A DNA stretch of 64,000 bases. Source: Phosphitispora fastidiosa. Lineage in GTDB: Bacteria; Bacillota; Thermincolia; Thermincolales; UBA2595. Below the pieces are notes generated by a model. That model did not search any database. It saw only the letters and a list, made by a program, of their open reading frames with translations, and was not told the origin of the DNA. The stretch's first letter is position 1. Each line of letters begins with the position of its first letter. The position numbers and the translations under genes are program-made. Below are positions 2,396-40,233 of this stretch, in pieces. The stretch covers positions 1 to 64,000 of the forward strand of contig NZ_JAHHUL010000003.1 in assembly GCF_019008365.1 (NCBI RefSeq), read 5' to 3'.

Positions 2396-2447
2396 CGGTG
2401 GACAACCACTGTTTATCATAAGGAGATAATAAAGGAGGTTGAAGGAA

Positions 2448-5400
2448 ATGAAAATAGCAAGCAGAATCCTGCTGTTTGCAGCAGGCATGGTCTTGGTACT
2501 GGCTGTAATGTTTTTCGGAGGCGGTACGGCCTTGGCCCAAGGCGGATTTGCAGGTGGTACAGGTACTTTGGAAGACCCCTGGCTGATTGAGACCCCTGAG
2601 CAGTTGGCCAGGATTGCGGAAACGGTTTATAGCGACAGCCATTTCAAATTGAATACCGACATTGACCTTACCGGTTACCTGTCGGAGGGAGGCGGCGGCT
2701 GGAATGATGGCGCGGGCTGGGAGCCCGTCGGCACGTGGATCGACGTATCGGATCCGGGTAATCCCTTCACCGGTAGTTTCGACGGTGGCGGGCATACCAT
2801 CAGCAACCTTTACATCAACCGGGATGAGACGGAGGGTGTGGGACTATTCGGTTACACGAATGGCGCTGTCATTAAAGACGTGAGGCTGGAGAATGCTGAT
2901 ATTACCGGTTATTGTTACGTCGGCAGCCTGGTGGGCTACAATAAAAACAGCACTATTGACGGTTCTTCCACTGATTCGGTGGTAATACAGGGCTATGGGT
3001 CAATAGGCGGCCTGGTGGGGTACAATCGTGAAGGCACGATCATTAACTCAAATGCCGCAGGCAATGTAACCGGTACTTTTTATACAATCGGCGGCCTGGC
3101 GGGCAGCAATGCTTTGGGAGAGATTACTAACTCATACGCCGAGGCTGTTGTACAAGGGGATTATATGGTCGGCGGCCTGGTGGGAGATAACTCTAACGGA
3201 AGCATTGAAAGCTCTTACGCTACAGGCACTGTGTCGGACATTGCTGTCCCAGATCCTGAAAGCGAGGGATACTTCGGCGGATTGGTAGGGCGTAACACTT
3301 ACGATGGAACGATCACCGATTCCTATGCCACGGGCAATGTAGACGGCACTGTTTATGTCGGCGGCTTGGCGGGAAGTAATAAAGACGGCGGAATTATCAC
3401 CAACTCTTACGCCACCGGTGATGTGACCGGCGCCAATCATGTCGGCGGTCTGGTGGGGTTCAATTTTCTGGATGACTATCTTTTTTACGATGATCCCCAG
3501 ATTAACGGCTGCTATGCCAGAGGCGCCGTGGCAGGGACTCAATACATCGGTGGTTTGGTGGGGGTAAATGACGGCGGTAAGATTACTCAAGCTTACGCTG
3601 CCGGCGCTGTCACCGGCACTGATTATGTCGGCGGTTTGGTGGGGAGTAATAACAGTCCCATTACCTCCATTACCGGTTCTTATTACGACAGTGAAACCAC
3701 TGGTTCGGAAACCGGTGATGGTGAATCTAAAACCACAATTCAGATGCAAACCCCTGTTACTTTTATTGATTGGGATTTTGCCGCGGTCTGGGGAATAAAT
3801 CCGGAACAAAACGGCGGTTATCCTTTCTTTAGATGGCAGGCGGAATACACAGATGCCCAATTTGCCGGCGGCACGGGCGAGGCTGCAACACCATATCAGG
3901 TGGCGGCGCCGTGGCAGCTAAACAATGCAAGACTTTATCTGGATAAGCATTTTATCCTGGTGGCAGATATTAACCTGTCCACTTACCTATCGGCAGGAGG
4001 TGGAGGTTATAACGAGGGTGAAGGTTGGGAGCCCGTCGGTACAAGTGAAAATCCTTTCACAGGCAGCTTCGACGGCGCCTGGTATGCCATCAGTAACCTC
4101 CTTACAGATAAGCCGGGGACCAATTATGTGGGTTTGTTCGGTTATGTAGGCGAGAATGGCGAAATTCGTAATCTGGGTCTCGATAATGTGGATGTCACCG
4201 GCGGAGATTACGTTGGCGGTCTGGCAGGGTTTAACTACAAAGGAACAATTACCAACTCCCGCGTTATGGGCAGTGTTAACGGCTTCGACACTATCGGCGG
4301 CCTGACCGGGCAAAACCAGGGTACCGTTACCGGTTGCTATGCCATAGTTGATGTTACCGGCGCCCAAAACGCTGGCGGCTTATCGGGATTAAACTTCCAA
4401 AGTGACATCGAAAACTCCTACGCTGCAGGCACTGCAAATGGTGATTATTACATTGGCGGGTTGGTAGGGTATAACTACTCAAGCGGCAGTATCACTAATT
4501 CTTACGCCACAGTCGTTGTCGAGGGCAATAGTTCAGTCGCCGGGCTGGGAGTGAACGATGACGGTACGATCACCAGTTCATTTTGGGACACCCAGACATC
4601 AGGTCAGTCAGGCGCTTCCGGCGGCACAGGAAAAACTACCGCGGAAATGAAACAGCAAACTACTTTTACGGGAAACGGGTGGGATTTTGATAATATATGG
4701 GAAATTAATGTGGGCACATATCCTTATCTTTCATGGCAGACCGATAATTATGACTTTGCCCCTCCTGTCTTTGCCAGTGTTTACCCGCAGGCTGACAATG
4801 TTACCCATAATGCATTGGACCTGCTGCTTCAAATAGATGAAAACGCCACCGCTTGCTACGTGGTATTGTCCGATGAGGCCGCTGCGCCCACCGCCGCCCA
4901 GGTCAGGGCAGGTACCGGCGCTGATGATGAAGTGTTGGATGCAAACCGTAAGGGAAGCATCGGGCTAACGACCGGCACGGAAGAAACGGTATCCATTACC
5001 GGACTGGAACCGGAAACGTCCTACCATATCTACGTGACAGCCGAGGATGCCGCCGGCAACCTGCAGCCTGATTTGCTGATGGCCATGACGGCGGTGACTA
5101 CGATAGAAGCGTCAGACACCACCGTCAACATTGCAGCTATCCCCGGCGTAACCCCTCCGGCAACTGGCGGCGTTCCGGTGACAACTATTAATGAAACAGA
5201 GCAGTACACCGGAACCATAAGCTGGGAGCCAGACCATGACCCGATCCAGGGGGAAACGGTGTATACAGCTGTTATAACCTTGACAGCTAAAGAAGGCTTT
5301 ACTTTTAATGGCGTGGCTGCCGGCTTCTTTACAGTAGCGGGAGCCGAAACAGTGACTAATGAAGTCAATTCAGGAGTTGTAACGGCAGTATTCCCGGAGA

Positions 5401-6953
5401 CAGCAGCAGTACCTGAAACGCAATATATCACAGTAACGTCCACCGGCCCGGTGAACGGCGCCACGGGTGTATCGCTGACGCCGACCGTTACCATAACCTT
5501 CAGCGAGAACATAGAGGCGGACAGCAGTTACGGCGGCATTACGATGAAAAACGCCGGAGGCGGCACCGTAGGCATCAGCAAAAGCATCAGCGGCAAAGTA
5601 TTGACCATCACCCCGGACAGCAGCCTCTCCTATAGCACCACTTACACGGTAACCGTACCGGTGGCAGCCTTAAAAAGCACCGCCACGGGGGCTAACCTGG
5701 AAGAACAGTACCAAATCAGCTTCACTGTCCGGTCAGCGCCTTCGGGTGGAAGCGGAGGCAGCAGAAGTAGTACACCTGTTTACAATGCCGCGATTACAGG
5801 CGGCAGTGCTTCGGGAACCGGCTTATCGATTGATGTCAGCACCCGGCCGGGCAGCGCAGTGGTTAACCTGGGAGAACAGGCGGGAGATATTCTGGACGGT
5901 GAAGGAATTACGGTCATCACAGTACCCACCATCCCCGGAGTGAATAATTACACTTTGGAAATCCCCGGTTCTTCACTGTCCGGTACTTTAGGGGAAAACA
6001 TCCTTACCTTCTCTACCGATTCCGGCAGTATTACTATACCGGACAACATGCTGTCCGGCACCGGATTAGAGGATAAAGGCGATATAGGGATTACCATAGG
6101 CGAAGGAGATAAATCCGGATTGCCGGACTATGTGAGGGATGACATTGGCGACAGACCCATTATCCGGCTTACCCTGACTTTGAACCAGGAGCAAACCGAC
6201 TGGAACAATTCCGATGCCCGGGTTACGGTATCTATACCCTATCAGCCCACAGCCGATGAGCTTGCCAACCCCGAGCATATCACGATATGGTACATAGACG
6301 GTGCGGGCAATGTGGTGGAAATGCCCAATGGCCGCTATGACCCCGGAACCGGAACCGTAACCTTCAGCACTACCCATTTCAGCCGGTATGCAGTGGTATA
6401 TGTAACCAAAACCTTTGACGATCTGGAAAGTGCTGTATGGGCTAAGAAGCCCATCGAAGTTCTTGCCTCTAAAGGCATATTGAAGGGCATATCGGAAAAG
6501 GAATACGCCCCACAGACAAATATAACAAGGGCGGACTTCCTGTATTACCTGGTCAGAACCCTGGGAGTTGATGCAAGGGTTGACGGAAACTTTGATGACA
6601 TAAGCCGGGACGCCTATTATTACAAAGAGATAGGCATAGCTAAAAAGCTGGGTATCACCCATGGTACGGGAAACAACAAATTCAGCCCTGACGAGAGCAT
6701 CACAAGGCTTGATATGATGGTATTGGCAGAGAGAGCGCTAAGAATGTTGGAAAAGCTTGAAGTGCAGGGTACGGCTTCAGACCTTGACAGGTTTGCCGAC
6801 AAATCACTGATAGCGGACTATGCCTCAGATAGCATAGCCTCCGTTGTCAGGGAAGGATTGATCGTTGGCAGCGGCGACAGGCTTAATCCCCTTGGCCATA
6901 CCACAAGAGCGGAGGCAGCGGCGTTCCTGTACAGGATATATAACAAGTATTGA
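2448..6953 (+). CDS. SLH-anchored surface protein with GLUG repeats and an SbsA-type Ig domain
   Basis: This is a secreted cell-wall protein of 1501 residues. A signal peptide (about residues 1-31, hydrophobic core ILLFAAGMVLVLAVMFF, ending ALAQ) is followed by two GLUG-repeat blocks (about 35-450 and 460-770; recurring GGLVGxN and ITNSYATG). After these come an Ig-like stretch, a Big_5/SbsA-type Ig domain (about 990-1100, TPTVTITFSENI), a Gly/Ser linker, a beta-rich module ending in THFSRYAVVYV, and three SLH domains (about 1325-1501) that should bind secondary cell-wall polymer. ATG 2448 is chosen because AAAGGAGG (2431-2438) sits 9 nt upstream; a TTG at 2439 overlaps that site. The C-terminal module and SLH type match those of the gene at 50460. 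The role is probably adhesion or S-layer decoration; the ligand is unknown. Confidence 0.9.
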   Translation: MKIASRILLFAAGMVLVLAVMFFGGGTALAQGGFAGGTGTLEDPWLIETPEQLARIAETVYSDSHFKLNTDIDLTGYLSEGGGGWNDGAGWEPVGTWIDVSDPGNPFTGSFDGGGHTISNLYINRDETEGVGLFGYTNGAVIKDVRLENADITGYCYVGSLVGYNKNSTIDGSSTDSVVIQGYGSIGGLVGYNREGTIINSNAAGNVTGTFYTIGGLAGSNALGEITNSYAEAVVQGDYMVGGLVGDNSNGSIESSYATGTVSDIAVPDPESEGYFGGLVGRNTYDGTITDSYATGNVDGTVYVGGLAGSNKDGGIITNSYATGDVTGANHVGGLVGFNFLDDYLFYDDPQINGCYARGAVAGTQYIGGLVGVNDGGKITQAYAAGAVTGTDYVGGLVGSNNSPITSITGSYYDSETTGSETGDGESKTTIQMQTPVTFIDWDFAAVWGINPEQNGGYPFFRWQAEYTDAQFAGGTGEAATPYQVAAPWQLNNARLYLDKHFILVADINLSTYLSAGGGGYNEGEGWEPVGTSENPFTGSFDGAWYAISNLLTDKPGTNYVGLFGYVGENGEIRNLGLDNVDVTGGDYVGGLAGFNYKGTITNSRVMGSVNGFDTIGGLTGQNQGTVTGCYAIVDVTGAQNAGGLSGLNFQSDIENSYAAGTANGDYYIGGLVGYNYSSGSITNSYATVVVEGNSSVAGLGVNDDGTITSSFWDTQTSGQSGASGGTGKTTAEMKQQTTFTGNGWDFDNIWEINVGTYPYLSWQTDNYDFAPPVFASVYPQADNVTHNALDLLLQIDENATACYVVLSDEAAAPTAAQVRAGTGADDEVLDANRKGSIGLTTGTEETVSITGLEPETSYHIYVTAEDAAGNLQPDLLMAMTAVTTIEASDTTVNIAAIPGVTPPATGGVPVTTINETEQYTGTISWEPDHDPIQGETVYTAVITLTAKEGFTFNGVAAGFFTVAGAETVTNEVNSGVVTAVFPETAAVPETQYITVTSTGPVNGATGVSLTPTVTITFSENIEADSSYGGITMKNAGGGTVGISKSISGKVLTITPDSSLSYSTTYTVTVPVAALKSTATGANLEEQYQISFTVRSAPSGGSGGSRSSTPVYNAAITGGSASGTGLSIDVSTRPGSAVVNLGEQAGDILDGEGITVITVPTIPGVNNYTLEIPGSSLSGTLGENILTFSTDSGSITIPDNMLSGTGLEDKGDIGITIGEGDKSGLPDYVRDDIGDRPIIRLTLTLNQEQTDWNNSDARVTVSIPYQPTADELANPEHITIWYIDGAGNVVEMPNGRYDPGTGTVTFSTTHFSRYAVVYVTKTFDDLESAVWAKKPIEVLASKGILKGISEKEYAPQTNITRADFLYYLVRTLGVDARVDGNFDDISRDAYYYKEIGIAKKLGITHGTGNNKFSPDESITRLDMMVLAERALRMLEKLEVQGTASDLDRFADKSLIADYASDSIASVVREGLIVGSGDRLNPLGHTTRAEAAAFLYRIYNKY

Positions 6954-7249: not shown

Positions 7250-10200
7250 ATGGCGAAAAAAAGGCAATGGAAAAAAGCAGGGGTTATCTTAACTGTAATG
7301 GTCTTATTGATGCAGTTGATTATACCGGCTGGCGGCGTTTATGCTGAAGCAGCTGCTGCAGCTCAACCCCCTGGAAGTGGAATGGAAGGAGACCCGTATC
7401 TGATTTCAACACCTGGCCATCTGTTATGGATGTCCGAAAATAATACCAGTAATTGGAGCTTTGACGGGAAGTATTTTATACAGAAAGCGGATATTGATAT
7501 GACTGGGATAGACTTTTTGCCAATAGGGGATATGTGGAATTATTTCGCGGGCAAATATAATGGGAACGGTCATAAAATTTCTAATCTGTCCATAGATGCC
7601 GGCACTCGTACTGGTGTAGGATTATTCGGTTGTATTAAAGGGAACCAAACACTGGTAAAAAGCCTGACACTTGAAAATGTTACTATGATCAATAGTAAGA
7701 CAACAGGGACATATAATTACGTTGGCGGTATTGCCGGTGAAAATGAAGCTACTATTGAATACTGCAATGTAACGGGCACAAGTACCATTTCTGCAACCGG
7801 TAATGCTATGGCCGGAGGTATTACAGGTTACAGTGCGGGTGGAACGGTAAGGAATTGTTCAAACTCAGCCGATGTTTTCACTAACTATACCGGCGATGGA
7901 GGTTCCCGCTCTGCCGGTGGGATAGTTGGAGAAAATGCTTCCTTCAGTGTTATAGAAAATTGTTTGAACACCGGAAGTATTACTCTGGGTTCTGCCACTT
8001 CAGCAGAGGCCGGCAGTGGTGGAATTACCGGTAAAAACTATAACAGCTATGGAGATCAGGGTACTGTACGATATACTTTGAATTTAGGTACTGTTACCAA
8101 AACCGATAATGGTCAGGCAGGCGGGATTATCGGCTATGATGAAGGCGGGATAACTACTTCAACTTACTTCCTGAGTAGCGCAGCTCCCAATGGAATTGGT
8201 TATGATGCTGCACTGGCGGGAGCAACAGATACTAATGCTGAGCCCCAGACTGCCGAAAATCTAAAGGATGTCAATACCTATACCGGTTGGGATTTTGACA
8301 CGGTTTGGAAGCTGGACCCGCCGGTTAATAACGGATTTCCTCATTTGATTCCGCTGCTGCCGGAATTTGACGGTATTTCTGCGGAAATCGGCAATGACAT
8401 GGGGGAAACGTTAATTAACATTGCGGATACTTTAGGGATCGACAACCGCCTGGTCATTAAGTTTGCCGAAGCGCCGATAGCAACACCTCTGTACGGGTCG
8501 GCGGCGCCGCAGGGCGAAACCGTAACAGATCCATATACATCCGGCCAAAACTTCAGTATCGATGCTGATGTCTATAAATATATTGGTGTATATGAAGTTA
8601 ATCAAACTGATGAAGTAGTCAAATTCAGCGAGGTTACGCCAAACGTCAGGTATATGGAGGGACTTGGCACTGAAGAAGCCCCGTTTCAGGTTACCAATGC
8701 TCTTCAGCTTTCGAGGGTATATGGTAACCCCGATGCTTATTACAGGCTTATGGCCGATATTGATATGACCGGAATTTCTGACTACATTCCAATAGGCACA
8801 GAAAGTTTACATAGGTTCAATGGAACATTTGACGGAGACAACCATATCATAAGCAATTTGACATTAACCAGCGGTGATTACTCTTATTTAGGACTGTTTG
8901 GACAGATTGGCACCGGGACTGTTAAAGACCTGGAATTGAAAGATGTCTCAATAACCAATACACAGGCATGGCCGGACGGAACCGGAGGTTTAACCGGCTT
9001 GAATACAGAAGGGACAATTTCGGATTGCCGGGTCACTGGAAACAGTACCATTACCGGTGGTGCATCAGTAGGCGGTATAGCCGGTGAACATGATGGCGGC
9101 AGCATTGCTCAGTGCTCGAATAATGCAAGTATTGCAGCCAATGAAGATTCTTCCTATTATGTGGGCGGCATTGCCGGTGGATACTGGGGAGGCAATATTA
9201 CAGACTGTTACAATACCGGTTCTGTCACAGGGGTCGATGGCGCTGAAACAGGGGGCATTGTCGGTGAAGCATGGCCATGGCCAGACGATTTCATCAGAAA
9301 TTGTTACAATACAGGAACGGTTAGCACCGGCTCTAGTGTAGGAGGTATTGCGGGATATTGTGGCGACGGCATTCTGGAGAATACTTATTTTCTTGATACG
9401 TCAGCAGAATTACCTTATGGTGCCGATGACACGGGAAGTGCACAGGCAGTGGCCAGGACTTCTGCGGAGATGCAGGACCAGAATACTTACGCCGGCTGGG
9501 ATTTTACAGCAATTTGGGCTATCGACAGTGATATCAATTCCGGGTTTCCCTATTTGCAGGGGGCCCAGGAGGAATTAACTCCAGTAGGGATAACCGGCAA
9601 CTGGGCAGACAATGCAGCTGCAGTTGAGGGCACTGACTATTCCGTAATTGGAGCTGTTTATACCATTAAAACAGCTACAGGGCTTGCCTGGTTGGCCCAG
9701 CAGGTGAATGGCGGGGATTCGTTCAGTGGTAATACGGTTGAACTGGAACGTGATCTGGATATCTCAGGCCATTATTGGACACCTATTGGAACTGCTCATC
9801 CCAACTATTATTCATTTGCCGGTATTTTTGACGGAAAAGGCCATAAAATTACCGGACTCTATATTGGGACCAGTGTTGAGTCACCTGGTACAAATGGCTT
9901 TGAGGGACTTTTTAGCGTTATTGGCAGTGATGGTGAAATAAAGCGCCTGGGTGTTGAAGTGGCAGCAATATATGCCGGTGCCGGTGAGTATGGCGGAATA
10001 CTTGCAGCAGTCAATTACGGTGAAATAACAGATTGTTATACAACAGGAGAAATAGTCGGCGCTAACGGTGCAGCATTTATTGGCGGATTAGTTGCCTCCA
10101 ATGAAGAGGGGCTGATAGCAAACAGTTTTTCTACAGCTAATGCATCAGGCAATGATTACGATACTTTGCCTCCCGCAGCCGGGGGATTGGTCGGCAGAAA

Positions 10201-12010
10201 TACGGGCAGCGGTGACTATGGAGTTATTGTCAACAGTTTTGCCACAGGTAATGTCAGTGTAGGTTCAGGCTCATTCGGAAATACCGCTTATGCCGGCGGA
10301 CTGGTTGGAGTAAATGAAAACAAAGGCAGGATTGAAAACTGCTTTGCCGGCGGAAACATCACCGGTGGAGCAACTGCAGGAATTGGCGGAGTGGTTGGCT
10401 TTCTGCATAACGGCTTTGATGAACTGGTGCCTAATGCGAAGAATATTTACTGGAACAGTGATGCAGTCCATACGCTAAACGGCAGCGCCTTAGATTTGGC
10501 TGATAAAAAAGGCGCCGGTGAGATGCTGGTTGGTTTGGATACCACAACATCTAAGACAGCAGACGATATAAATGCCGCCGCTTTTGTTACTGAGCTCAAT
10601 AACAATATAACCGAGAGCACGTCTGTGCCAGATATTGTCTATTTGGCCTGGGGTCCGGATGAGGCTAATGAAAATAACGGTTATCCTGTAATAACTGATG
10701 AACCTGTCAACACAGGTACACAGCCAAGCGGCGGCAGCGGCGGAGGCTCCACCGGTGACACCATCTCTGTAGAACAGGATGGCTGGAGCACTCAGGTGCC
10801 CGGAACAATTTCTACAGATACCGATGGAGAGAGGACTACTGCAACAATCAAGGCTGATGATGCGGCTATCCGGAAACTCGTGAACGCCGGCGCCAAGGGA
10901 ACCGTGATTACCCTGCCGGTAAACAGCGGCGCCGATGTCGTTATCGGTCAGTTAAACGGGCAGACCGTGAAAACCATGGAACAGAGGGAAGCTGTTCTGG
11001 AAGTCAAAACAAGCAATGTAACCTATAAATTGCCGGCATCGGAAATAAATATTGATGACATAAGCAAACAATTGGGCCAACAGGTTGAACTTAAAGATAT
11101 CAGGGTAGAAGTCACCATAGCCGCACCTTCCGCAGATACAGTCAAAATGGTTGAGGATACGGCTAATAAGGATAACTATCAAATAGTTGTCAAACCGGTA
11201 GAATTTAATATTACCTGCACCAGCGGCGGCAAAACGGTTGAAGTCAACAAATTCAATGCCTATATTGAAAGGGCCATAGCCATACCGGATGGGGTTGATA
11301 CGGCCAAAATCACTACTGGGATTATCGTGGAGCCTGATGGAACCACAAGACACGTGCCAACAAAGATAACTGTGGTCAACGGCAGATATTATGCTGTCAT
11401 CAACAGCCTGACCAACAGTACCTATTCAGTCATATGGCATCCCCTGGAGTTCAGTGATGTAACCGGCCACTGGGCCAGGGAAACCGTCAACGATATGGGC
11501 TCAAGAATGGTCATCAGCGGAATTGGCAACGGTATGTTTGACCCTGACCGTGATATCACCAGGGCTGAATTTGCGGCTATTCTGGTAAGGGGACTGGGCC
11601 TGCAGCCGGGAGAAGGGAGCAAGAGCTTTAAAGACGTGGATTCTTCCCAGTGGTACTCTGACTACATCAAAACGGCTTATGAATACAAGATTATCTCAGG
11701 CTATGATGCAGATACCTTCGGACCATCGGATAAAATCACCCGTGAACAGGCAATGGCCATGACAGCCAGGGCAATGGCAATCACCGGGCTGCCGGCGGAT
11801 ATTTCATCAGGTGAAACAGATGAACTTCTGGCCGGCTTTACAGATGCAGTCCAGGCGGCAGATTACGCCAAAGACAGCATAGCGGCATGTGTAAAGACCG
11901 GAGTTGTCTCCGGCAGAAGCAGCGCTATAGTTGCTCCGAAGGATAACATAACGAGGGCCGAAATTGCGGTTATCATCGGGAGACTGTTACAGAACTCGGA
12001 CTTGATATAA
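7250..12010 (+). CDS. SLH-anchored surface protein with three GLUG-repeat blocks
   Basis: This secreted protein has 1586 residues. A signal peptide (about 1-33, VILTVMVLLMQLIIPAGGVYAEA) is followed by three repeat blocks, each opening with a GxGxEGDPYLIST-like or TGLAWLAQQV segment and continuing as GLUG repeats (about 45-390, 465-780, 790-1140). A Gly/Ser linker leads to a 230-residue beta-rich module (about 1170-1400, with ASEINIDDISKQLGQQVELK) and three SLH domains (about 1402-1586; DITRAEFAAILVRGLGLQPG). The start at 7250 has an AAAGGGGCTGG ribosome region upstream. The anchor module is the same type as in the gene at 28814 and the remnant near 34.6 kb, and differs from that of the gene just upstream. 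The GLUG function is unproven; a surface adhesin is likely. Confidence 0.9.
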   Translation: MAKKRQWKKAGVILTVMVLLMQLIIPAGGVYAEAAAAAQPPGSGMEGDPYLISTPGHLLWMSENNTSNWSFDGKYFIQKADIDMTGIDFLPIGDMWNYFAGKYNGNGHKISNLSIDAGTRTGVGLFGCIKGNQTLVKSLTLENVTMINSKTTGTYNYVGGIAGENEATIEYCNVTGTSTISATGNAMAGGITGYSAGGTVRNCSNSADVFTNYTGDGGSRSAGGIVGENASFSVIENCLNTGSITLGSATSAEAGSGGITGKNYNSYGDQGTVRYTLNLGTVTKTDNGQAGGIIGYDEGGITTSTYFLSSAAPNGIGYDAALAGATDTNAEPQTAENLKDVNTYTGWDFDTVWKLDPPVNNGFPHLIPLLPEFDGISAEIGNDMGETLINIADTLGIDNRLVIKFAEAPIATPLYGSAAPQGETVTDPYTSGQNFSIDADVYKYIGVYEVNQTDEVVKFSEVTPNVRYMEGLGTEEAPFQVTNALQLSRVYGNPDAYYRLMADIDMTGISDYIPIGTESLHRFNGTFDGDNHIISNLTLTSGDYSYLGLFGQIGTGTVKDLELKDVSITNTQAWPDGTGGLTGLNTEGTISDCRVTGNSTITGGASVGGIAGEHDGGSIAQCSNNASIAANEDSSYYVGGIAGGYWGGNITDCYNTGSVTGVDGAETGGIVGEAWPWPDDFIRNCYNTGTVSTGSSVGGIAGYCGDGILENTYFLDTSAELPYGADDTGSAQAVARTSAEMQDQNTYAGWDFTAIWAIDSDINSGFPYLQGAQEELTPVGITGNWADNAAAVEGTDYSVIGAVYTIKTATGLAWLAQQVNGGDSFSGNTVELERDLDISGHYWTPIGTAHPNYYSFAGIFDGKGHKITGLYIGTSVESPGTNGFEGLFSVIGSDGEIKRLGVEVAAIYAGAGEYGGILAAVNYGEITDCYTTGEIVGANGAAFIGGLVASNEEGLIANSFSTANASGNDYDTLPPAAGGLVGRNTGSGDYGVIVNSFATGNVSVGSGSFGNTAYAGGLVGVNENKGRIENCFAGGNITGGATAGIGGVVGFLHNGFDELVPNAKNIYWNSDAVHTLNGSALDLADKKGAGEMLVGLDTTTSKTADDINAAAFVTELNNNITESTSVPDIVYLAWGPDEANENNGYPVITDEPVNTGTQPSGGSGGGSTGDTISVEQDGWSTQVPGTISTDTDGERTTATIKADDAAIRKLVNAGAKGTVITLPVNSGADVVIGQLNGQTVKTMEQREAVLEVKTSNVTYKLPASEINIDDISKQLGQQVELKDIRVEVTIAAPSADTVKMVEDTANKDNYQIVVKPVEFNITCTSGGKTVEVNKFNAYIERAIAIPDGVDTAKITTGIIVEPDGTTRHVPTKITVVNGRYYAVINSLTNSTYSVIWHPLEFSDVTGHWARETVNDMGSRMVISGIGNGMFDPDRDITRAEFAAILVRGLGLQPGEGSKSFKDVDSSQWYSDYIKTAYEYKIISGYDADTFGPSDKITREQAMAMTARAMAITGLPADISSGETDELLAGFTDAVQAADYAKDSIAACVKTGVVSGRSSAIVAPKDNITRAEIAVIIGRLLQNSDLI

Positions 12011-28547: not shown

Positions 28548-28813
28548 GTTTTATCTCCTTACTTTATTAATGTAGAGTCTCTCATGAAACATTATATAAT
28601 AATTTAAACTTAATAACATTTTTTCTATGAAATTTTTTTCTATAAAATTTAAAAATGAAGGTTTATCAAGGTCTCTGGGTCTGTCCATGATGTTTGAGAA
28701 GGAAGTTCAATAACCTGAAGAAATTAAATTCGCCAAAATTTGTCGAAATAAAGGGAAACTTTGTATCAATCAATAATTATATTTATATATGTTTCAGGGA
28801 GGTGTTTCATGAG

Positions 28814-31800
28814 ATGAATTATTACAAGAGAAGTTTGGAAATTTACGGTAAATTTTTCTTCGGTTGTTTAGCTTTGGTAATAGCGGTACTTACATTTTTG
28901 CCAGTACAGGTAAGTGCAGCGGAAATTTATGATGTGGATATACTCTTAAACGGTAATTGTGCCAATGGGTTCAATAACTGGGAGGGGGATACCGGAAGTT
29001 TTATTTCAGACACATCAGCTAATCTTGGATTGGATCCAAGTCCTGATGCGACTGATCCGGCAGGCTGGTGCTTTACTTTTTATCCAGGAGCGGCGGCAGC
29101 TGCATCTCTTTCACAGACAGTATCATTGACAGATTATGCTGTAAATATTTCAAATGGAGCAGTTAATCTTGAATTATCCGGATATGTTTCAAGATATAAA
29201 GCAGTATCTGCCAATAAAATAAGAATACAGTTACTGGACAATAGTGGAGTTCTTATTTCAGGGGAGGAATATGAAACTGTTGGAAGCACTGCCGATACGG
29301 ATGTTTCATGGGAGCAAAAAACTATTAATATATCATCAATTCATCCAAACACGCGAAGTGTAAAAGTGATTCTGGAAGCTACAATAAACGTTTCGCCGGA
29401 TGTAATAGCAGATTATATCCAGTATGATGGTATCCAACTTAAGTTACATGAAGTACCTACCTATACAGTAACTTATGATGGCAACAGCAACACCGGGGGT
29501 GCGGTACCCACTGATGCTACCAGCTACCATAATGGCGACACTGCAACCGTCATGGGAAATACGGGAAGCCTTGTCAGGACAGGATATACTTTTGCGGGCT
29601 GGAATACGGCGGCCAATGGGAGCGGTACGAGCTACACCGGGGGAGACACCTTTGCCATAGGCACCAGTAATGTCACCCTGTATGCCCAGTGGACAGTCGT
29701 GGATTACACCGTGACCTATAATGGCAATACAAATACAGGCGGTTCGGTGCCCACAGATGGCAATACATATAACATCACAGATACAGTTACCGTCCTGGGG
29801 AATACCGGAAGCCTGGTCAAGGCAGGCTACACCTTTGCAGGCTGGAATACAGCGGCTAATGGGAGCGGTACCAGCTACACCGGGGGAGACACCTTTGCCA
29901 TGGGCAGCAGCAATGTCACCCTGTATGCCCAGTGGACCGAAAATACCTATACAGTAACTTATGACGGCAACAGCAACACCGGGGGTGCGGTACCCACTGA
30001 TGCTACCAGCTACCATAATGGCGACACTGCAACCGTCCTGGGAAATACGGGAAGCCTTGTCAGGACAGGATATACTTTTGCGGGCTGGAATACGGCGGCC
30101 AATGGGAGCGGTACCAGCTACACCGGGGGAGACACCTTTGCCATAGGCACCAGTAATGTCACCTTATATGCCCAGTGGACAGCCGTGGATTACACCGTGA
30201 CCTATAATGGCAATACAAATACAGGCGGTTCGGTGCCCACAGATGGCAATACATATAATATTACGGATACAGTCATCGTACTGGGGAATACCGGCTCCCT
30301 GGTGAAAACAGGCTACACCTTTGCAGGCTGGAATACAGCGGCTAATGGGAGCGGTACCAGCTACACCGGAGGAGACACCTTTGCCATGGGCAGCAGCAAT
30401 GTCACCCTGTATGCCCAGTGGACCGAAAATACCTATACAGTAACTTATGACGGCAACAGCAACACCGGGGGTGCGGTACCCACTGATGCTACCAGCTACC
30501 ATAATGGCGACACTGCAACCGTCCTGGGAAATACGGGAAGCCTTGTCAGGACAGGATATGCTTTTGCGGGCTGGAATACAGCGGCTAATGGGAGCGGTAC
30601 CAGCTACACCGGGGGAGACACCTTTGCCATGGGCAGCAGCAATGTCACCCTGTATGCCCAGTGGAGAAAAAATAGTTCCGGAGGCTCAACAACACCGACA
30701 CCAACTATAGATACCAAAACCGAGGTAGTCGTTGACGGTCAAGTGGAATTGGCCGGAACAACCACAAATGAATTAGTAAATGGAGAGACTGTAACAACTG
30801 TTACTGTAGATGAAAGCATTCTTGAAAAAATTCTTAATACCGAGGGCAGCAACATTACAGTTCAAATTCCCATCAGCGGTAACTCCGACGTTAATGTAGG
30901 AGAGCTTACCGGAAAGGTTATAAAGACTATGGAAACAAAAGGTGCTGTCTTGGAGATACAGACACAAACAGTAAAATACACTATTCCTGCATCGGAAATT
31001 AATATAGATAATGTGTTAGCAGAATTGGGAGGAGAGGTTGAGCACAAAGACGTGAAAATAAGCATAAAAATAGCCCAGTCTCCTAAGGACACTGTACGCA
31101 TCATTGAAGACACTGCAAATAAGAACAACTACCAGATAGTCGTAAAACCCATAGACTTTCAAATAACGTCCAGCAGCGGAGAAAAGACGGTCAATGTTTC
31201 CGAATTCAACGGGTTTGTTGAAAGAACCGTTGCCATACCGGATGGTATAGACCCCTCAAAGATAACAACGGGTATTGTACTAAATGAGGACGGAACTTTC
31301 TCCCATGTGCCTACCCAGGTGATTGTTATTGATGGAAAATGTTACGCCAAAATCAACAGCCTGACCAACAGCACTTATGGCGTTATATGGAACCCCAGAG
31401 AATTCATAGATGTTAGGGACCACTGGGCCAAAGACGCTGTCAATGATATGGGTTCGAGGCTTGTCATCGGCGGTATTGGTAATGATATGTTTGCACCTGA
31501 CCGTGATATTACCAGGGCAGAATTTGCGGCAATAATTGTAAGAGCACTAGGACTGAAGCCAGGAACGGAGAATAATCCATTTACTGATATAAAAACTGCC
31601 GATTGGTATTATGAACATGTACAAATTGCTTACGAGTATGGTATAGTATCAGGTTTTGGCAACAGCAAGTTTGGCCCTATGGACAAAATTACCCGTGAGC
31701 AGGCAATGACTATGATATTCAGAGCTATGAACATTACGGGATTAAAAGTAGAAATAATTGATGAAACAGAAAGTGTACTTGCTGAATATGTGGATGGAAC

Positions 31801-31960
31801 CACAGCGGCAAACTGGGCCAAAGAAAGTATTGCTGCATGTGTAAAGACACAAATTGTATCCGGTAAAAATGGCAGTATTATTGCTCCCCGGGAGAATATT
31901 ACCAGAGCAGAAGTTGCAATAATGGTAAGCAGACTTTTACAAAAATCGAATCTGATTTAA
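28814..31960 (+). CDS. SLH-anchored surface protein with five InlB-type B-repeats
   Basis: A 1048-residue secreted protein. A signal peptide (about 1-36, GCLALVIAVLTFLPVQVSAA) is followed by a carbohydrate-binding-like beta domain (about 40-215). Five Listeria-Bacteroides/InlB B-repeats come next (TGYTFAGWNTAANGSGTSYT recurring, about 217-620), then a beta-rich anchor module (about 625-870) and three SLH domains (about 872-1048). ATG 28814 follows GGGAGGTG (28798-28804+). Upstream codons are open, but an ATG at 28809 is out of frame. The anchor matches that of the gene at 7250. InlB repeats often serve as stalks or adhesive units; the ligand is unknown. It is divergent from carB. Confidence 0.9.
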   Translation: MNYYKRSLEIYGKFFFGCLALVIAVLTFLPVQVSAAEIYDVDILLNGNCANGFNNWEGDTGSFISDTSANLGLDPSPDATDPAGWCFTFYPGAAAAASLSQTVSLTDYAVNISNGAVNLELSGYVSRYKAVSANKIRIQLLDNSGVLISGEEYETVGSTADTDVSWEQKTINISSIHPNTRSVKVILEATINVSPDVIADYIQYDGIQLKLHEVPTYTVTYDGNSNTGGAVPTDATSYHNGDTATVMGNTGSLVRTGYTFAGWNTAANGSGTSYTGGDTFAIGTSNVTLYAQWTVVDYTVTYNGNTNTGGSVPTDGNTYNITDTVTVLGNTGSLVKAGYTFAGWNTAANGSGTSYTGGDTFAMGSSNVTLYAQWTENTYTVTYDGNSNTGGAVPTDATSYHNGDTATVLGNTGSLVRTGYTFAGWNTAANGSGTSYTGGDTFAIGTSNVTLYAQWTAVDYTVTYNGNTNTGGSVPTDGNTYNITDTVIVLGNTGSLVKTGYTFAGWNTAANGSGTSYTGGDTFAMGSSNVTLYAQWTENTYTVTYDGNSNTGGAVPTDATSYHNGDTATVLGNTGSLVRTGYAFAGWNTAANGSGTSYTGGDTFAMGSSNVTLYAQWRKNSSGGSTTPTPTIDTKTEVVVDGQVELAGTTTNELVNGETVTTVTVDESILEKILNTEGSNITVQIPISGNSDVNVGELTGKVIKTMETKGAVLEIQTQTVKYTIPASEINIDNVLAELGGEVEHKDVKISIKIAQSPKDTVRIIEDTANKNNYQIVVKPIDFQITSSSGEKTVNVSEFNGFVERTVAIPDGIDPSKITTGIVLNEDGTFSHVPTQVIVIDGKCYAKINSLTNSTYGVIWNPREFIDVRDHWAKDAVNDMGSRLVIGGIGNDMFAPDRDITRAEFAAIIVRALGLKPGTENNPFTDIKTADWYYEHVQIAYEYGIVSGFGNSKFGPMDKITREQAMTMIFRAMNITGLKVEIIDETESVLAEYVDGTTAANWAKESIAACVKTQIVSGKNGSIIAPRENITRAEVAIMVSRLLQKSNLI
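29462..30664 (+). repeat. Five 243-nt repeats in alternating A/B types (486-nt higher-order period)
   Basis: Units start at 29462 (A), 29705 (B), 29948 (A), 30191 (B) and 30434 (A), each 243 nt except the last, which ends at the domain edge. A units resemble other A units far more closely than B units, and long tracts are identical, so the array grew by duplicating an A+B pair. It encodes the InlB-type domains. Confidence 0.93.
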
Positions 31961-34549: not shown

Positions 34550-34941
34550 ATACCGACCGACCCCGGTGCCACCTGGAAGCTGTACAGTGATGATAGCTGC
34601 ACAAGTGAAATAGTTGATTGAAACGGCTGGAACAGATGCAGAGGTAATTATCAATGGTAAAGTTGAAAGTATAGGGACATGGCAAGGGCATTGGGTTTAC
34701 AGCCTGGAACAGGTGAACAGGACATGGCAATGATAGACAGGGCGTCTGAGATTACAGGTCTCCAATATCAGGCCAATGCTCAGGAGTCGGAAAATTTGCT
34801 GGCAGAGTATAATGATTCTCACAAATCTGCTGACTGGGCGAAGACGAGTATTGCAAAGTGTTTAAAAATGGGTATAGTTTCAGGAAGAGATGATAAGACA
34901 CTTGCACCAAAAGATAAGATTACGAGAGCTGGAATATTATT
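34550..34941 (+). pseudogene. Decayed SLH-protein gene with internal deletions
   Basis: Fragments of an SLH gene of the type at 7250 and 28814 survive in shifting frames. First comes IPTDPGATWKLYSDDSCTSE, ending in a stop. Next, in another frame, is TDAEVIINGKVESIGT, the opening of the anchor region. A jump follows to ARALGLQPGTGEQ in the first SLH domain, then directly to MAMIDRASEITGLQ in the second or third. The last SLH part (WAKTSIAKCLKMGIVSGRDD) ends at ITRAG. Hundreds of residues are missing between the pieces, with short shared tracts such as GAACAGG at one join. It abuts the intact SLH gene at 34957. No function is expected. Confidence 0.8.
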
Positions 34942-34956
34942 TTGGGGAGGGATTGC

Positions 34957-37900
34957 ATGTTTGACAAAAAGATGATTCGAATTTTTAAAGCAGCTACAGT
35001 ACTGATACTTATTCTTGTTGTGACCAGTACCACAGCAATTGCGTCAACACCTTCAGACATAACCTCACACTGGTCAAAGGACAAAATCCAAAAATGGCTT
35101 GATCAGGGTCTGGCGAGCGGTTTTCCGGATGGCACGTTTAAGCCTGATGAGAATATATCAAGGGCTGAATTCATGGCCTTTACAAATAATGCTTTTGGTT
35201 ACACCGAAGGCAAAGAGATTAATTACAGGGATGTACCCTCAGGCATATGGTATGAAAATGTTGTGGCAAGAGCTGCAGCAGCGGGTTATATTGCCGGTTA
35301 CCCTGATGGCACCATGAAACCTGAAGCGCCAATAACCCGTCAGGAAGCAGCGGCAATTATATCCAGAATTCAGGAGTTGCCGGCTAATCCCGGCGCTGTT
35401 CTCAAATTCAGTGACGGGGCTGATGTATCCCAATGGGCCAAAGGTGCAGTGGGTGCTGTAATTGAAGCTGCCTATATGAATGGTTACCCTGACGGTTCCT
35501 TTATGCCCGGGAAATATGTAACCAGAGCTGAGGCATTGGCAGCTTTGGATAATGTCATTTCCAATTCAATTACCGGGGTTGTTTATGAGCAGGCCGGTTT
35601 GTACGGGCCTGCAGACGGTATTGAAACAATAGCAAAGGATGTAATCATTAAAGCCGATGGCATCACTCTTCAGAATATAAAAGTAAATGGGGATTTAATT
35701 ATTGCTGAAGAAGTGGGCGAAGGAACAGTAACCTTAAACAACGTAACTGTTGTGGGGACCGCCCGGGTAAGAGGCGGCGGACCTGACAGTATTGTTATTA
35801 ACGGGGGCATGTATAATAGTATTGTTATTGAGAAAGTCAATAACAAAGTTCGCATAGTGGCCAAGGGTGTTAAAGGCCCGGAAGGTAAACTGGTGGGTGT
35901 TATCTTAACAGATGGCGTTACTGATAAAGAGGTCATCTTTGAAGGTGATTTTAGTGAAATCACCGTAGAAAAGAATTTAACCGGGGTCAATTTGATATTC
36001 AATGCAGGTACAAATGTTAACAATCTGGTGTTAAATTCACCGATAGATGTAAGTGGGCCGGGGAATATTGAAAATACTGTAAACGACTTTGAAGTCGAAA
36101 CCCCTGGCAGCAGCAGCGGTGGCAGCGGTGGCAGCAGTAATAGGCCGCCCGGCAGTGCAAGCAGTCCTGCACCGGCAGCCGGAGCGGAAAATGTTGATTT
36201 TTTAAGCCCGGTGTTAGGCTGGACATGCTCTGATCCCGATGGACATGCTTTGACCTATGATATTTATTTTGGCACTGACCAAAACCTGGTTGCCGAAATG
36301 GATCAGGCAGTAAAAGCAGTAACCGGACATCAGGCTGCCACATATACGGCCGGTCTGTTGGAAGGAAGTACAAAATACTACTGGAAGGTAATGGCCAATG
36401 ACGGCCGCGGCGGAGAAACGGCCGGTCCCTTATGGGAATTTACCACTAAGGCACCGGAGGTCATAACCAATGGCTTAGGGTATTTTAAAATTGAAAACAA
36501 TGACAGTACCAAGTTCATCGAAGGCTTTGTCACCCACAACCGTGGCGGGGCCACAGTCCCCGGGGCAAAACTTACCTACCCTGTGGACATATTTGAACAG
36601 CCTGGTGATATTATAGTTACCAAAGCCGCTTATGCTGCCACAAGAATACAAAACGTTTATTGGAAGAATATTACCGGCTATGTATATGGTGAGGACAGTG
36701 TTCACGATGCGGTTTATAGTTGGGATGAACTAAATTATGTGTTTGAGGTGCCTGTCAGGGACACCTTTAATCCCGGCTGGACAGATACGCCTCCGGAACT
36801 CCTTATCGAAGGGATTAATCCCGGTGACGAGGTATCGGGAACCATAAGCTTTGATGTATCACTTAAATCGGGAAATGAATTTTTTGCCGGTTATGTTTAC
36901 CTGGGCGGAGAGCAGCGGTATCCCAATGACGGCTTTGCAGTAGAGACAGCACAGATACCGGTAACGATTGATACAACCCGTTATCCCAATGGCAATACCT
37001 ATATCAGAATACTGGTTTATGACGAAAATGACAACGCTGTCTTGTCAGTCATTCCGGTAGTTGTTGAAAACACTGCCGGCAGCACGGAGTTACCCGGTGC
37101 AATTACCAGTCTGAATTTATCCTCTGAAACAAAAAATATAAATTTCGGTTATTACTCTTTGCCGGTTGATGGGGTAGAAGGAGCAAATATAAAGCAGTCC
37201 GGCCTTGATCCCGTTGATGTTTCCATTTCTAACAGGCTAACCTGGGGTTTGGCCATGGGAGCAAGTGGTTATAAGGTTTATCGGAGTTTTGACGGGGTGG
37301 ACTATACTCTGATTGGAACAGTAAAACTTGGAAGATTCGACGACTATAGCCACCTGCTCGAAATCGGCAAAAAAACATATTACAAAGTTGTTCCGTTTAA
37401 CAGCTTCGGGGACAATGAAGGGGGCGCCTTGACCAGGTTTGTTATACCCCTGCCTGCTCTTTATGTCTATTTGGACAGCCCGCAAAACGGCTTAAAGGAC
37501 GCGGGTCTTGCACCTATATTTAGCTGGCACGTCTCAACCGGCGGCGGTGATTTTGATGAATCTCTTTATGGTCCCGTTACCCAGGAGTTTCAATTTTCAT
37601 TATATGATGCCACGGATTATCGGATAGATTCCCAATATTTTACTGACCGGTTTGATTATGTAGTACCCTTTGAGCTTAATCCCGGTGGAATTTATTCCTG
37701 GGATATAAGCTCGGCAGAGGCCTTCGCAATGTTTGAGTCCGATAGTACCGGATTTTCCTATGCCGTATCTACAGCCGGTAACGGTTCTGCTAATGGAGAA
37801 AATATCTTCACTACCACTGTTAATGATATCCAGTCACCAGGTAATATTTCAGTTGATTACCTGAACTATCAGGATAACAACTATGATAGCGGGCAGGTTT

Positions 37901-39636
37901 TGGTCAAAACCGCCAACCTGGCTGCTCTGGAAAAATCCCTGAAGCATTATGGCAGTGAATCTCTAAAGGTGTGGGAGAATATCGGCTGGAGCCTGGTAAA
38001 AACACCGGAAGGAGATACTGTAGAAAGCTTTATCCATAAACTGCTCAGAGACAGCGATGTCATTATGGCACAGCCCGATTTTATGATGGAAGCTCCTGAA
38101 CCACAGGTGGCGGATGAGCAGCAGCAATTAATGAGCCTGGCGGCGGCAGAAGCTCCTGCAATTGATGTAGGGCCGGAGGCAGCCCTGGACAAATCATGGG
38201 GCCTGCAAAATATCAATGCCCAGGGGGCCTGGCAGCAAACCACCGGTGACAGTAATGTAATTCTGGCTGTCATTGATACCGGTGTGGACACGACCCACCC
38301 GGAATTTGCCGATAAGACCTTTATAGGACCCTATGATGCCACCGGTGAAGGTAATCCGAATGTTGACTTCAGCGGGCACGGCACACATGTGGCCGGGATT
38401 GCCGGGGATAACGGCAGGAACGGTAAGCTTGCCGGCATCGCCTGGGATTCTCCTATTATGCCGGTGAGAGTGGAAGACAGCAGTGGAAGAATTCTAACTT
38501 CATATTTGATTGAAGGGACTGAAGCTGTAGCGGATTATGTGTACAATAACCCGGATTACCGTGCTGTAATCAATATGAGCGTAGGGGGACGGCGGGATTA
38601 CAATTTTGCCTTTAAAGACGCCATCGATTATGCTTTGGACAATGGTGTGGTATTTGTGACTTCTGCAGGCGACGGCTCCAAGAGAATTCCGAGTTACCCG
38701 GCATCTTATAACGGTGTAATAGCTGTGGCGGCTTCCACACCGTATAATACTGAGGCCGACTCCTCCAACACCGGGCCCTGGATTTCGGTGGCGGCACCCG
38801 GCGAAAAAATATATTCCACGTATAGTTACGAATCGTATCAATTCCTGGATGGCACGACAGCGGCTTCCCCATATGTTGCGGGAGCTGCGGCGCTGTTACT
38901 TTCCAAGTACCCCGACCTTACTCCCATCGAGGTAAAGAATCAGCTGGAACAAACCGCCCAGGGAAATGATTTCAACGAAGAACTGGGGTATGGGGTTATT
39001 GATTTAAACGCTATGCTGGGGGCTATTGAGCCGATGCGATATGGTTCATTGACAGTAAGCACCAATATTAAAGATACTGCCTCTGTAAGCGGAATCGGAC
39101 ATGGGGTAATTTCCGTTTTCGATATCAATGAAAACCTGGTGGCTTATGGACTAACCGGGGAAAACGGGGGACACGTCTTCCACTCAATGCCTTCCGGTGA
39201 TTACCAGGTAGTGTTGTCGTACTATGATCACTACAAAGAAGAATACAGTTATCAAATACAGAATGTGAGCATTCAACCGTCAGAGTCCGTGGAAATCACA
39301 GTTAACTTCAGTATCCCGCAATTTGTTATCAAGACGTCGGTATATCTGGAGAACATCCAGAATACTGAAGGACAGCATGAAATACCGATAACCGTTGTGC
39401 AGGAAGGGATATATGAATTTACCACCTCTTACTACATGGAAGACTGTGATACCGTTTTGTATATTTATGATACGAACGGTACTGAGATTGCCTATAATGA
39501 TGACTATAGTGACGGGTATTATTCCTCTATTATGTTATCTCTGTCCCCAGGAGATTATACCGTTCGCATTGAGGAATATGGGGGCGATGTATTGAATTGT
39601 GCTTTAGAGATCCTTGTGCTTGATGTAATATATTAA
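34957..39636 (+). CDS. SLH-anchored subtilase-like protein with altered active site
   Basis: A 1559-residue exported protein. A signal peptide is followed by three N-terminal SLH domains (about 30-205; HWSKDKIQKWLDQGLASGFP), beta-rich strands (about 215-380), a Gly/Ser/Pro linker and Ig/Fn3-like domains (about 400-950). A propeptide-like segment comes next (about 965-1040; QVLVKTANLAALEKSL), then a peptidase S8 domain (about 1075-1345) and a C-terminal PPC-like beta domain. The catalytic Asp (VIDTGVD) and His (GHGTHVAGI) are present. The serine motif reads GTTAASPYVAG instead of GTSMASP, so Ser is Thr, and the oxyanion Asn is Asp (SAGDGS). It may be an inactive scaffold or a Thr-based enzyme. 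ATG 34957 follows GGGGAGG at 6 nt. Confidence 0.9.
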   Translation: MFDKKMIRIFKAATVLILILVVTSTTAIASTPSDITSHWSKDKIQKWLDQGLASGFPDGTFKPDENISRAEFMAFTNNAFGYTEGKEINYRDVPSGIWYENVVARAAAAGYIAGYPDGTMKPEAPITRQEAAAIISRIQELPANPGAVLKFSDGADVSQWAKGAVGAVIEAAYMNGYPDGSFMPGKYVTRAEALAALDNVISNSITGVVYEQAGLYGPADGIETIAKDVIIKADGITLQNIKVNGDLIIAEEVGEGTVTLNNVTVVGTARVRGGGPDSIVINGGMYNSIVIEKVNNKVRIVAKGVKGPEGKLVGVILTDGVTDKEVIFEGDFSEITVEKNLTGVNLIFNAGTNVNNLVLNSPIDVSGPGNIENTVNDFEVETPGSSSGGSGGSSNRPPGSASSPAPAAGAENVDFLSPVLGWTCSDPDGHALTYDIYFGTDQNLVAEMDQAVKAVTGHQAATYTAGLLEGSTKYYWKVMANDGRGGETAGPLWEFTTKAPEVITNGLGYFKIENNDSTKFIEGFVTHNRGGATVPGAKLTYPVDIFEQPGDIIVTKAAYAATRIQNVYWKNITGYVYGEDSVHDAVYSWDELNYVFEVPVRDTFNPGWTDTPPELLIEGINPGDEVSGTISFDVSLKSGNEFFAGYVYLGGEQRYPNDGFAVETAQIPVTIDTTRYPNGNTYIRILVYDENDNAVLSVIPVVVENTAGSTELPGAITSLNLSSETKNINFGYYSLPVDGVEGANIKQSGLDPVDVSISNRLTWGLAMGASGYKVYRSFDGVDYTLIGTVKLGRFDDYSHLLEIGKKTYYKVVPFNSFGDNEGGALTRFVIPLPALYVYLDSPQNGLKDAGLAPIFSWHVSTGGGDFDESLYGPVTQEFQFSLYDATDYRIDSQYFTDRFDYVVPFELNPGGIYSWDISSAEAFAMFESDSTGFSYAVSTAGNGSANGENIFTTTVNDIQSPGNISVDYLNYQDNNYDSGQVLVKTANLAALEKSLKHYGSESLKVWENIGWSLVKTPEGDTVESFIHKLLRDSDVIMAQPDFMMEAPEPQVADEQQQLMSLAAAEAPAIDVGPEAALDKSWGLQNINAQGAWQQTTGDSNVILAVIDTGVDTTHPEFADKTFIGPYDATGEGNPNVDFSGHGTHVAGIAGDNGRNGKLAGIAWDSPIMPVRVEDSSGRILTSYLIEGTEAVADYVYNNPDYRAVINMSVGGRRDYNFAFKDAIDYALDNGVVFVTSAGDGSKRIPSYPASYNGVIAVAASTPYNTEADSSNTGPWISVAAPGEKIYSTYSYESYQFLDGTTAASPYVAGAAALLLSKYPDLTPIEVKNQLEQTAQGNDFNEELGYGVIDLNAMLGAIEPMRYGSLTVSTNIKDTASVSGIGHGVISVFDINENLVAYGLTGENGGHVFHSMPSGDYQVVLSYYDHYKEEYSYQIQNVSIQPSESVEITVNFSIPQFVIKTSVYLENIQNTEGQHEIPITVVQEGIYEFTTSYYMEDCDTVLYIYDTNGTEIAYNDDYSDGYYSSIMLSLSPGDYTVRIEEYGGDVLNCALEILVLDVIY

Positions 39637-39679
39637 CTTTCGTTGAGGTTTCAAAAGGGATAAAAAAATATCCTTAAAT

Positions 39680-39723
39680 GACATTTAGCGCAGCACCAAT
39701 TATGGTTGACTGCGCTAAATGTC
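39680..39723. repeat. 14-bp perfect inverted repeat after the subtilase-like gene
   Basis: GACATTTAGCGCAG (39680-39693) and CTGCGCTAAATGTC (39710-39723) flank a 16-nt loop. A T-run follows only when read on the minus strand, so for the upstream gene it is at best a T-less terminator or RNA-stabilising hairpin. Confidence 0.75.
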
Positions 39724-39755
39724 GTTCAAATGAAGAAGTGAATGGGCTTTTTTTC

Positions 39756-39828: not shown

Positions 39829-40233
39829 GTGTCGCAGCTGAAGCTTAACACCGAAGGAATGAAACCCATATATATCCAAATTGCAGAATGGCTGGAAACA
39901 GAAATACTTTCCGCAAGCATAAAGAGTGATGAAAAAATATACTCTCAATATCAACTTGCCGAGATGTTCAATATTAACCCGGCCACTGCAGCCAAAGGGC
40001 TTAATATATTGGCTGACGAAAAAATCTTATATAAAAAGCGGGGACTGGGTATGTTCGTGTCACCCAAGGCGAAAGAAAGTATTCTGGAGAAACGGAAAAA
40101 TCAAATGTTAAAAAATTTGGTATTGGAATTGGTTACGGAAGCGGAGCGTTTAGGTGTAGATGAAAATGAACTGATTAGCATGATAAGGACTTCTAAAAAA
40201 TTTATGGGGGGAAGGGATCATGAACGTAATTGA
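39829..40233 (+). CDS. GntR-family (YtrA-type) transcriptional regulator
   Basis: A repressor of about 130 residues with an N-terminal winged helix (KPIYIQIAEWLETEI, then QYQLAEMFNINPATAAKGLN and a wing with YKKRGLGMFVS). Its short helical tail is too small to be an effector domain, the mark of the YtrA subgroup. The start is uncertain: GTG 39829 overlaps its own AGGGGGTG site, and a downstream CTG at 39838 would be better spaced. It overlaps the ATPase gene by 14 nt. YtrA-type regulators typically repress their own ABC operon. Confidence 0.87.
   Translation: MSQLKLNTEGMKPIYIQIAEWLETEILSASIKSDEKIYSQYQLAEMFNINPATAAKGLNILADEKILYKKRGLGMFVSPKAKESILEKRKNQMLKNLVLELVTEAERLGVDENELISMIRTSKKFMGGRDHERN

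Follow-up and report, generated by a model that had tools for sequence, protein, structure and literature searches.

A candidate pseudo-subtilase on a cell wall anchor, apparently formed by fusion of a lipoprotein gene pair in the Thermincola lineage

The gene at 34957..39636 lies on the forward strand of the 64,000-nucleotide stretch of DNA analyzed here (the window), which comes from a thermophilic bacterium that we place in Thermincola. It is open over 1559 codons plus a stop codon in one uninterrupted frame. The start codon taken originally, TTG at 34942, is replaced here by ATG 34957, which is likelier because a sequence resembling a ribosome-binding site precedes it; the residue numbers D1107, H1141, D1239, and T1301 are counted from that ATG. 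The features of the gene and of the encoded protein are as follows.

34957..39636, + strand: whole gene, candidate SLH-anchored pseudo-subtilase (sequence and Pfam)
34945..34950, + strand: GGGAGG, resembling a ribosome-binding site, 6 nt 5' of ATG 34957 (sequence)
34957..35046, + strand: N terminus resembling a signal peptide, MFDKKMIRIFKAATVLILILVVTSTTAIAS (sequence, judged by eye)
35065..35559, + strand: three N-terminal S-layer homology (SLH) domains (Pfam PF00395, 7.7e-36; extent from the NF033190 match 36-200)
35569..36120, + strand: beta-helix-like repeat module and the start of a Gly/Ser linker (comparison with other proteins)
36496..37815, + strand: partner domain (alignment to separate partner lipoproteins)
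37873..38076, + strand: prodomain, Fervidolysin_NPro-like (Pfam PF22148, 1e-6; high pLDDT in the model)
38068..38079, + strand: prodomain-end motif AQPD (alignment; [AV][EQ]PN in 12 relatives)
38080..38196, + strand: linker between prodomain and S8 domain, rich in Ala, Gln, and Pro, with low pLDDT (alignment, model)
38251..38994, + strand: Peptidase S8 domain (PF00082, 3.3e-49)
38275..38277, + strand: catalytic Asp, kept, GAT, D1107 (sequence, alignment)
38377..38379, + strand: catalytic His, kept, CAC, H1141 (sequence, alignment)
38671..38673, + strand: oxyanion position, Asn to Asp, GAC, D1239 (sequence, alignment)
38761..38763, + strand: conserved Phe (F189 of subtilisin BPN') to Ser (alignment)
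38857..38862, + strand: nucleophile Ser to Thr (ACA, T1301) and the following Met to Ala (sequence, alignment)
39331..39633, + strand: C-terminal tail domain (also conserved in L082 and in the remnant of a sister species)

Profile and fold both assign the peptidase part to the S8 family: the PF00082 match scores 168 bits against a cut-off of 21.8 bits, with 248 residues covering profile positions 2-288, and Foldseek matches the predicted structure to subtilisins and fervidolysin. The model of the prodomain plus the S8 domain has a pLDDT of 89.2 and a pTM of 0.90, and its best PDB match is the unprocessed pro-subtilisin E (3whi), followed by fervidolysin. The original prediction had described a well-kept subtilase fold on an S-layer anchor, with a propeptide-like region, and that description holds: the Peptidase_S8 match is near-complete, the prodomain is recognized by Pfam, and three stretches matching PF00395, together with the signal peptide judged by eye, identify an SLH-anchored surface protein. 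The PPC-like tail that had also been proposed survives only in part, since the tail is conserved in L082, but Pfam finds no PPC domain in it at E<=0.001.

Around the gene, no structured RNA reaches the Rfam gathering score. An inverted repeat with 20-nt arms (90% complementary and 16 nt apart) lies at 39674-39729, 37 nt past the stop codon, and could be a terminator or an operator ahead of the GntR gene at 39829. On the other side, a stranded SLH domain (34809..34931, + strand; Pfam SLH, 1e-10), whose reading frame contains no intact gene, ends just before the ribosome-binding site and appears to be debris of another SLH gene. Three more large SLH proteins are encoded in the window, at 2439-6953, 7250-12010, and 28694-31960, with GLUG repeats in two of them and List_Bact repeats in one; all three carry their SLH domains at the C terminus, whereas those of the S8 protein are N-terminal.

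The catalytic Asp (GAT 38275) and His (CAC 38377) are retained and in frame, as had been read originally, and the Asp-His-Ser triad is incomplete, with Thr in place of Ser. The Thr codon at the nucleophile (ACA 38857) and the Asp codon at the oxyanion position (GAC 38671) had likewise been read correctly, and alignment with subtilisins and the AK.1 protease agrees, placing D1239 opposite the oxyanion Asn and T1301 opposite the nucleophile Ser. The spacing from AG to YPA is the same as in close relatives, and no gap is required; an alternative route to the oxyanion Asp would be a deletion/insertion at the loop (AGND-GKR versus AG-DGSKR).

The substitutions of Ser and Asn are far beyond chance. 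In an alignment of 61 S8 domains of the phylum, the oxyanion Asn is present in 60 and the nucleophile Ser in 59 of the 60 domains with a residue there, the window protein being the sole exception at each site. It departs at 2 of the 27 columns that are conserved at 95% or above, and these are exactly the catalytic Asn and Ser; the chance of two random departures both landing among the four catalytic columns is 0.017. When 398 phylum genomes were searched with a degenerate DNA pattern encoding GT-Thr-xx-(S/T)-P-(H/Y)-VAG, the window gene was the single match; with a TCN Ser codon in the pattern instead, there were 73 matches, spread over 51 of these genomes. Further conserved positions near the active site are altered as well, the Met after the nucleophile being Ala and the Phe at 38761 being Ser. 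At the prodomain end, the Asn of the [AV][EQ]PN motif of the 12 relatives is replaced by Asp, and the linker that follows exceeds that of the nearest relatives by about 17 residues.

The genome has six S8 genes; the nearest relatives of the window S8 domain are not these paralogs but copies in seven genomes of another class, namely, G341 (L082, L083), G403 (L092/L121), G435 (L122), G431 (L123, L128), G430 (L124, L129), G429 (L125), and, more distantly, G421 (L093/L126). The closest of them reach 62% identity in the S8 domain, and in a tree of 54 S8 domains the window protein groups with L083, L086, and L087 at a support of 100/99. These relatives are unfused pairs, a separate partner gene followed by an S8 gene, with lipobox-like signals where the N termini were read; the partner lies upstream of the S8 gene in all of them except L124 and L129, both of which were fetched with little upstream sequence. 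The window's partner domain (36496-37815) is homologous to the separate partner lipoprotein of G341, G403, and others (36% and 33% identity). This lipoprotein family is uncharacterized and sits just 5' of an S8 lipoprotein in a few genomes (L082:4470-5939, L083:2513-4180, and L092:7802-9808). Near the pair in G403 there is a second, more distant S8 lipoprotein-like gene (L092:11948-13873) with canonical AVGNDG and GTSAAAP motifs.

The beta-helix-like N-terminal module recurs in further proteins from the genus and the family and is absent from G341 and G403. A native N-terminal module, combined with homology to both members of a pair now fused, argues that the window protein is a chimera of a native anchor module and a fused pair. 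Searches for a phage or plasmid origin returned ordinary S8 matches only, all below 60% identity, and no plasmid match for the partner. All copies of the relatives that were read keep Ser, and they keep Asn too wherever that site is readable, which leaves out L125. Orthologs sharing the Thr/Asp pair, which the original prediction had looked for, were not found in the genus, the family, the class, the 398 phylum genomes, or the class of G341. Because every ortholog found has Ser, and Asn where read, the pair appears private to the one window lineage as far as sampled; a private change of this kind was what the original prediction had held against its own reading.

The closest sequenced species is represented by a Thermincola ferriacetica MAG, in which L024:5908-6440 is syntenic to window positions 37591-39633, with flanks 94-95% identical and the genes immediately flanking the remnant 91-97% identical in protein. 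No intact ortholog was found in this sister species. What is left is a remnant of three pieces (P0001 residues 877-906, 1087-1132, and 1458-1558); the deletions between them have short stretches of homology or none at their junctions, and one of them causes a frameshift. The protein is therefore dispensable there. The shared pieces show a two-branch divergence of 0.13 in dS and 0.074 in dN. The third member of the genus has no match to the genes that flank the window gene.

The window S8 domain shows no rate acceleration: its end branch measures 0.30, and those of its two nearest relatives 0.29 and 0.30. In neutral simulations at 3-6.5% substitution, no more than about 2% of runs left the 4.7-kb ORF open. 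A frame evolving neutrally would probably have been interrupted after the window lineage and the sister species diverged; this argument covers most of the time since that split and is compatible with a recent loss.

We consider it moderately probable that the gene encodes a single-chain, wall-anchored pseudo-subtilase, in which the pair was fused onto the native SLH and beta-helix module and the catalytic residues were then lost. The starting point would be a gene pair, also present in distantly related members of the phylum, that encodes a partner lipoprotein and then a subtilisin-family lipoprotein. In the Thermincola lineage, this pair would have been fused onto the native anchor module with loss of the lipobox signals of both members, after which Thr would have replaced the nucleophile of the S8 domain (Ser) and Asp its oxyanion donor (Asn), the prodomain end being altered as well. 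The product would most likely be a catalytically dead or severely impaired surface protein on a single chain. Its prodomain would not be self-cleaved, and the folded S8 domain would stay covalently tied, through the prodomain and the partner domain, to the cell wall anchor. There it may bind rather than cut, its ligand being peptides, a different surface protein, or the prodomain of the same chain; the natural candidates for such binding would be substrate peptides or the partner and prodomain domains of this protein.

The first substrate of a subtilase is the end of its prodomain, and changes both there and at the catalytic residues would fit a loss of self-cleavage. With the SLH domains placed before the prodomain, self-cleavage would separate the S8 domain from its anchor. 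As a reason for inactivation this position is only suggestive, because the lipoprotein homologs are also anchored before the prodomain and because a Ser-to-Ala mutant of dentilisin, discussed below, still shows processing; the notion that an N-terminal anchor alone makes cleavage destructive is weakened by the layout that those homologs share. The original prediction had proposed selection for a non-proteolytic scaffold. Its premise stands, in that the catalytic residues are lost and the fold is kept (departures at catalytic columns, an unaccelerated branch, an open ORF), but the Thr/Asp pair is unshared, and selection for a scaffold is at most what we infer from this pattern. Against the pseudo-subtilase reading stand the absence of any ortholog with the same changes and of any sign that selection maintains the inactive state, the deletion remnant in the sister species, and the processing by the dentilisin mutant.

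A rather unlikely alternative is that the fused gene has recently lost its function and is in young decay, the active-site changes being the first visible neutral hits with deletion to follow. The sister copy is already down to three fragments, an SLH gene fragment lies immediately upstream at a locus that accumulates debris, and the Thr and Asp occur in one genome only, all of which would agree with decay. The same can be said of the dN/dS of the shared pieces, which at 0.56 (from 43 changes) exceeds that of all seven neighbors (0.07-0.34), although this value lies between neutral and constrained and would be the same for constraint on one branch or relaxation on both. Decay is harder to reconcile with 4.7 kb still open (a probability of about 0.02 or less under neutrality at a substitution level of at least 3%), with changes at only the two catalytic columns among 27 near-invariant ones, and with a branch no longer than those of the relatives.

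Residual or altered catalysis, with Thr as the nucleophile in slow self-processing or on an activated substrate, is improbable in our judgment, even though the Asp and His of the triad are unchanged and the model shows an intact fold. Active members of clan SB, the proprotein convertase PC2 and the sedolisins, are known to have Asp at the oxyanion position. On the other hand, both transition-state features are changed here, along with the prodomain-end motif and the nearby Phe and Met, and such a Thr is present in no other S8 domain found in this analysis; no natural S8 enzyme that uses Thr as its nucleophile is known to us, and narrow literature searches for such a subtilase and for the oxyanion Asp of PC2 returned nothing usable. 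The threonine-dependent enzyme suggested in the original prediction is left without positive support. Very improbable, in particular, would be a Thr-for-Ser subtilase still catalytic through slow self-processing or through acyl transfer at the surface (peptide ligation) instead of hydrolysis; the equivalents of Met222 and Phe189 are positions also altered in engineered subtilisin ligases. An error of sequencing or assembly at both codons is scarcely credible: the genome is a draft in 239 contigs, but it is rated 99.96% complete, and the two changes are separate and accompanied by linked changes in the same functional neighborhood.

Read as a wall-anchored pseudo-subtilase, the window gene would be a traceable case of a protease pair that underwent fusion, changed its type of anchor, and lost its catalytic function; its unfused relatives, which look active, allow comparison. 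It makes testable the question of whether attachment of a subtilase to a wall anchor through its own prodomain accompanies the loss of self-cleavage.

The partner/S8 pairs of G341, G403, G421, G429, G430, G431, and G435 resemble the window protein in having the same partner, the same prodomain, and, in some, the C-terminal domain; unlike it, they consist of two genes, with lipobox-like signals where read, no SLH domains, and canonical Ser (and Asn where read). The SLH-bearing subtilases L095, L096, L099, and L106 have an S8 domain and three SLH domains on one chain, as the window protein does, but their SLH domains are C-terminal, after the enzyme, which stays anchored once the prodomain is removed; L095, L096, and L099 (aligned as L015, L006, and L025) have the canonical Asn and Ser. 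The PC2 convertase and the S53 sedolisins have the oxyanion Asp of the window protein but, as is generally known, keep the Ser nucleophile and are active.

Dentilisin of Treponema denticola (PrcB-PrcA-PrtP) is an active protease in a surface complex, with a lipoprotein partner encoded before the subtilase lipoprotein (PMC8167434), a layout that resembles the unfused partner/S8 relatives. Its Ser-to-Ala nucleophile mutant still processed PrcA and released its N-terminal fragment (PMC8167434), so loss of the Ser need not abolish processing. Membership of the window protein in the dentilisin family lacks support: it scores 141.9 bits against an NCBIfam PrtP cut-off of 300, and homology of the partner to PrcA amounts to a weak 25-residue match (E of 0.048) in the L083 partner, with none in the window.

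The nearest functional parallel is CspC/CspA of Clostridioides difficile, known S8 pseudoproteases of spore germination (PMC6636752), which likewise combine an S8 fold and a retained prodomain with loss of catalytic residues. In CspC the Asp is retained, His is replaced by Thr and Ser by Gly, there is no autoprocessing, and the prodomain stays uncleaved (PMC6636752). CspA and CspC contain a jelly-roll insertion of about 130 residues that is lacking from the window S8 domain, whose 248 residues span profile positions 2-288. The window protein also differs in keeping His, in its combination of Ser to Thr with Asn to Asp at the oxyanion position, and in its SLH anchor. It is a variant of the known pseudo-subtilases, not a new enzyme class, and a candidate bacterial pseudo-subtilase outside spore germination.
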